Origin: Desulforhabdus amnigena
GTDB taxonomy: Bacteria; Desulfobacterota; Syntrophobacteria; Syntrophobacterales; Syntrophobacteraceae
Direction of reading: 5' to 3'
Assembly: GCF_027925305.1 (NCBI RefSeq)
Contig: NZ_BSDR01000001.1
Span: 3,065,001-3,129,000 of the forward strand
DNA length: 64,000 nt
Shown here in pieces: positions 42,795 through 44,391 of this stretch. The notes beneath the pieces are model-generated. The model saw nothing but the letters and a program-made list of their open reading frames with translations. It was not told where the DNA came from and did no database searches. Within the stretch, counting starts at the first letter, position 1. Each line of letters opens with the position of its first letter. A program made the position numbers and the translations under genes.

Positions 42795-42817
42795 TAAGGA
42801 AAGCGATTCGTTTGAAG

Positions 42818-43135
42818 ATGAACAGATATCAAGAAATCACGGCGGCAAGAAAACTTTTGGAGATCCCGGAAACAGCAACCATGGCGTCGATTAAATCGAG
42901 CTACAAGAGGCTGCTGACCAAATGGCATCCGGATAAATGCGGCGAAGACCGGGAAAAATGCAACGAAATGACCCGCAAGATCGTTTCGGCTTATCAAACG
43001 ATCTTGGAATACTGCCGGCAATATCAATATTCCTTCTCCGAAGAGGCGGTAAAAAGGCATCTCTCGCCTGAACAGTGGTGGTTGGAACACTTCGGCGACG
43101 ATCCTCTGTGGGGAAATGACATGAAGCGCAAATAA
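42818..43135 (+). CDS. J-domain protein (DnaJ-like, short)
   Basis: 105 residues from ATG 42818; TTG 42812, two codons upstream, is an alternative start. The J domain has His37-Pro38-Asp39 in LTKWHPDKCGEDREKCNEMT, followed by a C-terminal part rich in Trp (QWWLEHFGDD). It would stimulate the ATPase of a DnaK partner elsewhere. It contains only the J domain, without Gly/Phe or zinc-finger regions. The nearest neighbour downstream is the DsrE-like selenoprotein gene. Confidence 0.88.
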   Translation: MNRYQEITAARKLLEIPETATMASIKSSYKRLLTKWHPDKCGEDREKCNEMTRKIVSAYQTILEYCRQYQYSFSEEAVKRHLSPEQWWLEHFGDDPLWGNDMKRK

Positions 43136-43373
43136 CGGTTCACCCGGTAGAATCGCGATGATGCGGTTTCCGGTTTTGTATCCCCGGGCTCCACTCCAAG
43201 CAACGATTGATTTCAGAAAATGCAAAAGATTAGATTATTTAGCATTCTATCCTCTACTCTGCGGCAGAGGTCCTTACCACATTATTGAACGGTTTCATTT
43301 CTCCTTGAAAGGGGGCGATGCGCTTTGTGGAAGGAAATCCTTTTGTCTCAAAAACTATAAGGGGAAAATACAA

Positions 43374-43685
43374 ATGAAAATCTTGTTTGTCATTACCACC
43401 GATGATGGCGAAACCATTTATAATGCAATGCGGCTCGCAAATGTGGGCGTGAAGAAGGGGGACGAAGTCAGCGTGTTCATGCTCGGAAAGGGCGTCCTTT
43501 TTGAACAGGCAGGGAACGAGCAATTCAATGTCATGGAGCAAATCAACCAGTTCGAGGGCGATTTTTATGTCTGAGGGGTCTGCATGAAATCCCACGGTTT
43601 GGTGGGATCAAGCACGTGCCCGATTGGTTGGATGGACGATTTATATGAAATCGCCATGGAAGCCGACAAGATTTTCACTTTTTGA
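43374..43685 (+). CDS. DsrE-family selenoprotein (UGA at codon 67 read as selenocysteine)
   Basis: ATG 43374 is preceded by AAGGGG. 103 codons if UGA 43572-43574 is read through. Residues 1-66 are a DsrE/DsrF-like start (MKILFVITTDDGETIYNAMR, GDEVSVFMLGKGVLFEQ). After UGA67 the same frame continues GVCMKSHGLVGSSTCPIGWM and ends DDLYEIAMEADKIFTF with a normal TGA at 43683-43685. That continuation is the family's C-terminal half, where a Cys usually sits at the UGA position, giving a UxxC motif. A bacterial SECIS hairpin lies 15 bases past the UGA (43589-43608). This strongly suggests Sec67. Role probably in sulfur/selenium transfer or thiol redox; inference. Confidence 0.82.
43589..43608 (+). 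promoter_or_regulatory. Candidate bacterial SECIS hairpin
   Basis: ATCCCAC-GGTTTG-GTGGGAT forms a perfect 7-bp stem with a 6-base loop that begins GG. The loop starts 21 bases after the UGA codon, in the range usual for bacterial selenocysteine insertion elements, and contains the expected G near the loop start (compare GGUCU in fdhF). Confidence 0.75.
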
Positions 43686-43753
43686 AAAAGGTTCGTCCGA
43701 TTTTGAAGGGCGATGTTTTTTGAGTAGGCACCCGGTGCACCTCCAAAAAAAAG

Positions 43754-43786
43754 AAACCCCGAAGGAATTGCCCCTCCGGGGTTTTT
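43754..43786. terminator. Bidirectional terminator between selenoprotein and acetate transporter
   Basis: AAACCCCG and CGGGGTTT pair, with an inner AGG/CCT extension, A-rich before and TTTTT after, so it can end transcripts from both sides. Confidence 0.8.
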
Positions 43787-43815
43787 CAAGATCACTTTTA
43801 TGATTTCAATAAAGA

Positions 43816-44391
43816 TTATTTAATCCAGGGTGCGCCTACGGGAAGAACGGGCCTGCCAAAAAGACCGTTCAGTATGACTGCGGCCATCATGTACCAGGCA
43901 AGCAATGCACAGACAACCAGGTCCCAAGCCACTGCTTTCAGGATGCCTTTCATATCTGCGAGAAAAACGAGGTCAAGACCGACAAAGCCGATGACCAGAG
44001 TAGTGAAAGTCCATGCCATGGCTCCATGGATTTTCATGGCTCCGACCCACAAAATGAGGGTGTACAAGGTGTAACCAACGAGGAAGAAGCCGATATCATT
44101 GGCTGTTATGCCCAAATGCTTACCGATATTCAGATCGGCAAGGAGCCAGATGAGTGCAAGTGCGATCCAGAATGCACCATAGGATACGAAGGCGCTGTAA
44201 CCAAAATTATTGCCGCATTTGAATTCCTGGAAGCCTGCGATCAGCTGCGCGCCACCGCCGAATGCCAACGCTGTACAGAAAATAATGCCGGTGCCACACC
44301 ATCCAAGGTTATGAAACTGGAGAAGCAACGTGGTCATACCGAAACCTGCCAAACCGACTACTGCTGGATTCCCTTGTCCTGGAGCTGACAT
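43816..44391 (-). CDS. satP: Acetate/succinate transporter (SatP/GPR1-FUN34-YaaH family)
   Basis: 191 residues with six membrane helices. The family signature NPAVVGLAGFGMTTLLLQFHN (NPAPLGLxGF type) is near the start, and AFGGGAQLIAGFQEF plus SYGAFWIALALIW are further family hallmarks. It is an inner-membrane acetate channel/transporter. In this window it matches the presence of an acetyl-CoA synthetase and PDH-like operon. Its 5' leader is AT-rich and includes a possible small membrane gene at 44503-44748. Confidence 0.93.
   Translation of the reverse strand: MSAPGQGNPAVVGLAGFGMTTLLLQFHNLGWCGTGIIFCTALAFGGGAQLIAGFQEFKCGNNFGYSAFVSYGAFWIALALIWLLADLNIGKHLGITANDIGFFLVGYTLYTLILWVGAMKIHGAMAWTFTTLVIGFVGLDLVFLADMKGILKAVAWDLVVCALLAWYMMAAVILNGLFGRPVLPVGAPWIK

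Follow-up and report, generated by a model that had tools for sequence, protein, structure and literature searches.

A DsrE-family gene of Desulforhabdus amnigena with an in-frame UGA very probably encodes a selenoprotein of a known family

The window, a stretch of 64,000 nucleotides of Desulforhabdus amnigena DNA (contig NZ_BSDR01000001.1), contains a DsrE-family gene whose reading frame is interrupted by a UGA codon (Table 1). An initial annotation, made from the sequence alone, had described this in-frame UGA as followed by 36 codons and an ordinary stop. This was borne out: from the ATG at 43374 the UGA is codon 67, and 36 sense codons lead to a terminal stop at 43683-43685, which is itself UGA. 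Among the best 80 of 94 relatives from named species the last stop varied (TGA in 38, TAA in 26, and TAG in 16), and the terminal UGA is therefore most likely a true stop. In the list of open reading frames made with translation table 11, a 138-codon frame (43158-43574) ends at the internal UGA, so that residues 67-103 would be lost to a standard gene caller, as had been anticipated. Only the read-through version passed the gathering cutoff of Pfam DsrE (PF02635; 22.7 bits), with 38.7 bits for the whole 103-residue frame and 20.8 bits for residues 1-66; residues 68-103 alone had no Pfam match.

Table 1. Features of the dsrE locus, in window positions
Feature	Position	Strand	Remarks
Small J-domain (DnaJ N-terminal type) gene, upstream of dsrE	42812..43135	+	Pfam DnaJ 42.6 bits
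AGGGG, Shine-Dalgarno-like, 9 nt before ATG	43360..43364	+	Read from sequence
DsrE-family gene, very probable selenoprotein	43374..43685	+	103 aa with Sec67; Pfam DsrE match; relatives 103-106 aa
Probable Sec UGA, codon 67, motif U67-G-V-C70	43572..43574	+	TGA column in relatives
Cys70 codon, UxxC partner of Sec	43581..43583	+	Matches the second Cys in the CKTC of YchN
Extended hairpin: lower stem UGC/GCA + UGA/UCA, AA bulge, upper stem	43581..43614	+	MFE fold
bSECIS upper hairpin ATCCCAC-GGTTTG-GTGGGAT	43589..43608	+	7 Watson-Crick pairs, 6-nt loop opening GG
Cys82 codon, then Pro83; third invariant Cys of group A	43617..43619	+	Alignments A1, A3
Inverted repeat with T-rich tail, between dsrE and the convergent gene	43754..43784	-	
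Gpr1/Fun34/YaaH-family gene, convergent to dsrE	43816-44391	-	

Relatives of the gene were collected from several sets of genomes. A match was present in 36 of 117 relative genomes (D. amnigena included) and absent from 81, among them the only genome of the same genus; 21 of the matches, again with its own included, were full length, 62-99% identical, and carried one TGA each. The TGA stood at the same column in 30 of 30 loci read out. The best 80 of 94 named-species relatives all had TGA at this column and the motif UGxC, with Cys in none, and their titles were mostly deltaproteobacterial (Thermodesulfobacteriota), three being labeled Nitrospirae/Nitrospiraceae (L126, L128, and L130). When 395 genomes of the phylum were searched with a profile, 99 had matches at E 1e-4. 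Leaving 22 identical copies out of 176 matches yielded 154 distinct ones, the window gene included, a sample picked by likeness to the Sec genes whose counts are not population frequencies; the Sec column held TGA in 133 and Cys in 17 (12 TGC and 5 TGT), and 4 were fragments without the column; for three of these (L042, L047, and L060), another piece of the locus is in the count. Locus L042 has a frame change and further stops, L060 has an internal TAG, and L047 also looks broken; either decay or assembly error may account for this.

We divided the matches into three groups: group A, in which TGA is combined with Cys at column 82 (106 genes, including the window gene); group B, the other TGA genes, defined by the absence of Cys82 (27, including the degraded L042); and group C, the 17 Cys genes. 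A Cys three residues after the Sec column, in the place of Cys70, was present in 106 of 106 group A, 22 of 27 group B, and 16 of 17 group C genes, the group B genes without it being L097, L167, L187, L172, and L181 (UGKL, UGKS, or UKKA). Cys82 was invariant in alignments A1 (21 sequences) and A3 (34 sequences), and a Cys at column 82 also occurred in 13 of the 17 Cys homologs. A tree was built for 72 of the 146 sequences on an alignment of only 105 columns, with many forks unresolved. One branch (SH-aLRT 99) separated the 30 group A rows from the rest, all Cys genes included, and the Sec and Cys labels needed at least 6 changes overall, or 3 when only starred branches were counted. By these alignments and this tree, group A appears as a clade that is Sec-only in the sample, with a third invariant Cys. 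At locus L174 a Sec copy and a Cys copy of the DsrE gene stand side by side, and in L172 and L181 a Cys copy adjoins the Sec copy with UKKA.

Presence of selA, selB, selC, and selD was a check set beforehand, and all four were found in the genome, a single contig of 4.54 Mb. The tRNA-Sec, with anticodon UCA, scored 72.9 bits (cutoff, 47), and ARAGORN agreed, calling tRNA-SeC(tca); a second tRNA-Sec match over the cutoff (L002) was rejected as tRNA-Trp. SelB (383.2 bits), SelA (620.4 bits), and SelD (403.9 bits) were all over their cutoffs. The SelD gene carries an in-frame TGA in the context GUAAK, in agreement with UxxK, the selenophosphate synthetase motif according to an excerpt of PMC13188914, and YedF adjoins selD (L193). 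SelA was detected in all 10 genomes tested among the 80 named loci, three of them Nitrospirota-labeled metagenome-assembled genomes. In the 395-genome phylum sample, SelA was present in 65 of 65 genomes with a TGA-type match at E <1e-16, against 355 of 395 overall (Fisher P 5e-4, from two genome lists compared by eye).

On the two sides of the UGA, dN/dS was computed for 400 random pairs from 84 full-length group A genes of the 106. The median was 0.063 before the UGA and 0.081 after it, with dS mostly saturated and usable in 67 (before) and 283 (after) of the 400 pairs. Relatives did not stop at residue 66, a possibility that the initial annotation had raised, and the sequence past the UGA was conserved (dN/dS about 0.08). 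It is extremely improbable that the UGA arose by nonsense mutation or as an error of sequencing, or that the functional product is the 66-residue fragment: the copies of some relatives look broken (L042 and L060), but 133 distinct genes have the UGA at one and the same column, flanked on either side by sequence under purifying selection, and the fragment lies under the Pfam DsrE cutoff. We found no point in favor of a reassigned code in which UGA would stand for Trp or some other ordinary amino acid, and we consider this hardly credible, as the non-TGA genes have a Cys codon at the column in 17 of 17 cases, tRNA-Sec(UCA) and SelB are present, and UGA also serves as terminal stop here and in 38 of the 80 named relatives. 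All of these readings were rejected on the evidence of census, selection, Pfam, and machinery.

The initial annotation had further placed a hairpin with a 7-bp stem and a 6-base loop opening GG 21 bases past the UGA. Stem and loop are as described, but the spacing differs: the stem begins after 14 bases, and it is the loop that lies 21 bases past the UGA. The criteria for bSECIS elements given in an excerpt of PMC13188914 are a loop of 3-9 nt, a stem of 4-16 bp, G in the first two loop bases, a spacing of 16-37 nt, and an MFE of at most -7.5 kcal/mol; the window hairpin has values within these ranges (loop, 6 nt; stem, 7 bp; GG; spacing, 21 nt; MFE, -14.9). The fold of 43572-43614 gave -14.9 kcal/mol with z -2.06, 9 of 200 shuffles being as stable, and that of 43569-43620 gave z -1.53 (14 of 200 shuffles). 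On both strands of the window, 27 of 2364 TGA trinucleotides (1.1%) are followed at 15-37 nt by a hairpin with at least 7 Watson-Crick pairs and G in the first two loop bases, and the hairpin alone is therefore modest evidence. An Rfam search over 43100-43850 at a permissive threshold returned five matches, all below gathering scores. By homology, namely, the Pfam score and the UGA and downstream sequence conserved in relatives, the pairing of UGA and hairpin nevertheless appears to be nonrandom.

Comparison of 104 distinct group A regions revealed a strong codon preference at the hairpin. Ser codon 73 was TCC in 83 of 84 cases, against 15% of Ser codons elsewhere in these genes; Gly codon 75 was GGT in 91 of 103, codon 78 was GGA in 84 regions, and codon 77 was GAG in 54 or GTG in 40. 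Mean codon bias was 1.08 bits per codon in the hairpin versus 0.20 elsewhere (p 8e-4, uncorrected for relatedness), and the five most biased of 95 columns all fell within codons 73-79. The stem pairs were formed in 93-103 of the 104 regions, except for pair 20:29 (44 of 104), where an A.A mismatch occurs in roughly half of the group. Pairs 16:33, 18:31, 20:29, and 21:28 exceeded all 500 shuffles, which ignore relatedness; pair 16:33 (TA in 81, GC in 9, and GT in 4) is the clear case of covariation, at 95 versus 73.7 in shuffles, and the other three hardly vary. The lower stem (7:40 to 13:34) had no covariation beyond shuffles in the group A regions. The loop was GGTCTG in 64 of 104 regions and GGTTTG, the form in the window, in 3.

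Group B has a loop of three bases, GGN in 25 of 27 regions. The seven pairs 15:31 to 21:25 were formed in 23-27 of the 27 regions and were reached by 0-23 of 500 shuffles; six of eight pairs were retained in no fewer than 25 of the 27, each of the six exceeding almost every shuffle. Among the 17 Cys genes, each of the six upper pairs of group A was formed in 2-7, and the group B pairs in 3-7, with one in 15. Folding energy relative to synonymous recodings had a mean z of -0.66 in group A, -1.65 in group B, and -0.09 in the Cys genes; the group A value was below zero in 76 of 106 genes, a weak energy signal from single-sequence folds that allow no mismatches. The hairpin of relative L051 was no better than shuffles (z 0.31). 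From these alignments, the hairpin appears to be conserved with Sec, with a stem that covaries in part in Sec genes, and it was not seen in the Cys relatives. That it is a by-product of protein conservation was rejected, as codon choice itself is fixed and the Cys homologs do not show the hairpin. We conclude that UGA67 very probably encodes selenocysteine and that the gene is that of a selenoprotein.

Alignment of the translation past the UGA with the DsrE family placed Cys or Sec in the column of residue 67, and the earlier claim that DsrE-like proteins carry Cys at this position held for YchN and the 17 Cys homologs. A PDB profile search with groups A and B together (mixed alignment A2) matched Escherichia coli YchN at E 2.8e-6, with its CKTC opposite U67-G-V-C70; no DsrE chain came up when the query was alignment A3, made of group A only. 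Columns 67 and 70 were invariant Cys/Sec when the window protein was aligned with two further Cys-homolog types and three other DsrE proteins of the genome. In one of the latter (L190), the same Cys aligns with Cys78 of Allochromatium vinosum DsrE (2HY5, E 0.0072). Through these successive alignments, of which the last is weak, U67 would correspond to the DsrE active-site column (Cys78). Sulfur or persulfide is bound at DsrE-Cys78, a residue needed in vivo and postulated as the active site of the superfamily, according to an excerpt of PMC3397948.

An AlphaFold2 model, made with the TGA read as Cys and an alignment of 34 sequences (33 of the 80 named loci and the window), had a pLDDT of 91.7 and a pTM of 0.84. 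In the model, residue 67 is the last of strand 63-67 and precedes helix 68-73, and residues 71-90 are the least certain (block pLDDT 75 and 77). The six best VIA rows, with Z of 12.6-15.6, were 3mc3 (15.6), 1jx7 (YchN; 14.6), 3pnx, 2qs7, 2d1p (TusBCD; 12.9 for 2d1p_B), and 2hy5 (DsrEFH; 12.6 for 2hy5_A); the nearest solved structures are titled YchN, DsrE, DsrE/DsrF-like, TusBCD, and DsrEFH. The window protein is thus predicted to be a single-domain DsrE fold.

Publications on DsrE-like UxxC selenoproteins go back to 2005. Excerpts of the sources describe two sequences from the Sargasso Sea in 2005 (PMC1088965), one from Desulfovibrio vulgaris in 2006 (PMC1794560), and DsrE 1 and 2 selenoproteins (PMC2398784), and list DsrE-like selenoproteins as predicted with high confidence (PMC9312934 and PMC13188914). 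The initial annotation had mentioned such proteins from deltaproteobacteria and proposed a UxxC motif with Sec67; excerpts of PMC1088965, PMC1794560, PMC9312934, and PMC13188914 agree on the occurrence in a deltaproteobacterium and on UxxC, which is present here as U67-G-V-C70. A literature search for DsrE with selenoprotein or selenocysteine, with subscription journals mostly outside its scope, returned no title of an experimental study of a DsrE-like selenoprotein. It is well supported that the window gene adds a member to a known family; added here are the Sec-only clade with Cys82, the TsoR/TsoA genes near relatives, and a second Sec gene with CxxU.

This second DsrE-family Sec gene of the genome (C1:3415273-3415614, minus strand; locus L191) has the mirror motif CxxU, as CKAU. 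CxxU together with a CCCCCG...CGGGGG hairpin was present in four further genomes (L198-L201), making five in all, at 75-99% identity, and nine other homologs read had CKAC. In the parts of PMC1088965, PMC1794560, PMC2398784, PMC9312934, and PMC13188914 cited here, DsrE-like selenoproteins are given as UxxC only.

Compared by description, the published DsrE-like selenoprotein (PF02635; representative WP_014524487.1) shares with the window protein the Pfam family, UxxC, bSECIS, and deltaproteobacterial occurrence, whereas the third invariant Cys82 is a feature of group A. E. coli YchN (1JX7) has the same fold, and the Cys columns of its CxxC match U67 and C70, but it has Cys rather than Sec and is 22-23% identical. 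DsrE of DsrEFH and TusD of TusBCD (2HY5 and 2D1P) share the common fold, with Cys78 in the same column via the alignment chain; unlike the window protein, DsrEFH and TusBCD are complexes for sulfur oxidation or tRNA thiolation. Against the DsrE/TusD equivalog TIGR03012 (cutoff, 89.25 bits), the window protein had no match at E up to 1, and none of four DsrE family members tested reached NCBIfam cutoffs.

We read 150 neighborhoods of DsrE-family genes. The flanks had a median length of about 3 kb and were often shorter, which makes the counts lower bounds. In 9 of the 150, the window included, a near-full-length homolog of the J-domain gene lay close to the DsrE gene, that of L184 being distant (34% identity); matches in L062 and L097 were short fragments (23 and 35 residues). 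J-domain genes lie up- or downstream of the DsrE selenoprotein gene in the window, L052, L053, L060, L072, L108, L111, and L128. Separately, a 20-base sequence occurs six times in the window with at most one mismatch (20446, 29780, 42699, 50167, 50400, and 61648), against 0 copies expected by shuffles, and is a dispersed genome repeat.

An ArsR-type regulator and a small protein were encoded near the DsrE gene, on the same strand, in 25 of 150 neighborhoods (22 distinct loci), 14 of them with group A, 8 with group B, and 3 with group C genes. One regulator tested scored 155.9 bits against NCBIfam TsoR (cutoff, 115), and one small protein scored 134.7 bits over its last 83 residues against TsoA (cutoff, 170). 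When the TsoA-type genes were read further upstream, all 25 had an in-frame TGA in an (L/Y)U(L/I)AxC motif. TsoR- and TsoA-type genes thus lie within 2 kb of a DsrE-family gene, on the same strand, at 22 distinct loci covering all three groups (among them L043, L049, L052, L062, L069, L073, L102, L114, L133, L135, L144, L166, L169, and L187), with the full order ArsR/TsoR-TsoA-J-domain-DsrE in L052 only. In the 395 phylum genomes, TsoA was over its cutoff in 33 and present at E 1e-8 in 46; 21 of these 46 also had a DsrE match of groups A to C at <1e-16 (73 genomes), against 8.5 expected (hypergeometric P 5e-6, uncorrected for kinship). The window gene, unlike these relatives, has no adjacent tsoR or tsoA, and its own genome has no match to the TsoA model that matches 46 of 395 phylum genomes. 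An excerpt of PMC13188914 describes Tso as a three-selenoprotein operon and lists the DsrE-like protein apart from it. Our data give moderate support for a link between the DsrE family and the Tso system. At L043, L049, and L133, a methyltransferase gene (Pfam methyltransferase domains), which we take to be ArsM-like, overlaps or directly follows the group B DsrE gene.

In the mechanism that we propose, SelB with Sec-tRNA(Sec) would recognize the bSECIS hairpin just downstream of UGA67. The Sec67 selenolate would then take up a sulfane-sulfur (or selenium) atom as an Se-S adduct and hand it on, while Cys70, and in group A also Cys82, would resolve the adduct via an Se-S bond that a thiol reductase would reopen. 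The +3 Cys is missing from 5 of the 27 genes of group B, so an Se-S bond with that residue would not be general. The role in these anaerobes would be sulfane-sulfur or selenium trafficking or detoxification rather than sulfur oxidation of the DsrEFH type. We infer sulfur or selenium transfer at Sec67 with the chances about evenly balanced.

The same residues could serve a thiol-disulfide (or peroxide/metalloid) reductase, in which U67 attacks an oxidized substrate and C70/C82 resolve, with no onward carriage of sulfur or selenium. This is possible, if somewhat unlikely. UxxC is a redox motif, excerpts of the cited surveys place the family among homologs of thiol-based oxidoreductases, group A has three invariant residues that are redox candidates, and some loci adjoin ArsR-type regulators, in group B also the presumed ArsM-like methyltransferase; however, the fold is that of DsrE, of which a studied member carries a persulfide on the same residue (PMC3397948, in excerpt), and some relatives have no partner Cys. 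We think it doubtful that the protein belongs to selenium handling, delivering selenium to SelD or removing excess selenide, as a stand-alone cousin of the YedF DsrE domain. YedF (TIGR03527) has a DsrE domain with CGxC and a link to selenium metabolism (PMC5322559, in excerpt), the window protein matches it weakly, and selD and yedF lie next door to the DsrE gene in 3 of 150 neighborhoods. Yet YedF also has a TusA-type domain, the match (16.6 bits) is far under the YedF cutoff of 110 bits, and the genome already has a YedF beside selD; linkage to selD is rare, and only 65 of 355 SelA-bearing genomes have a TGA-type match at E <1e-16.

Returning to transfer at Sec67, the DsrE fold predicts carriage of sulfur or selenium at a known active site, and the relatives with Cys in the column provide natural controls. 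The DsrE selenoprotein family is probably under-annotated in anaerobes, since the catalytic part past the UGA would be cut off by a standard gene caller and the four members tested reached no NCBIfam cutoff. As a tentative hypothesis, group A might be a distinct Sec-obligate DsrE subfamily (U67, C70, and C82) and a further selenoprotein component of the TsoR/TsoA system with the J-domain protein, forming a regulated pathway, based on selenium, by which anaerobes deal with reactive species of sulfur, selenium, or metalloids; the D. amnigena genome would keep the J-domain/DsrE pair of this pathway. The TsoR/TsoA link of many relatives offers a route to the function of both the DsrE family and Tso.
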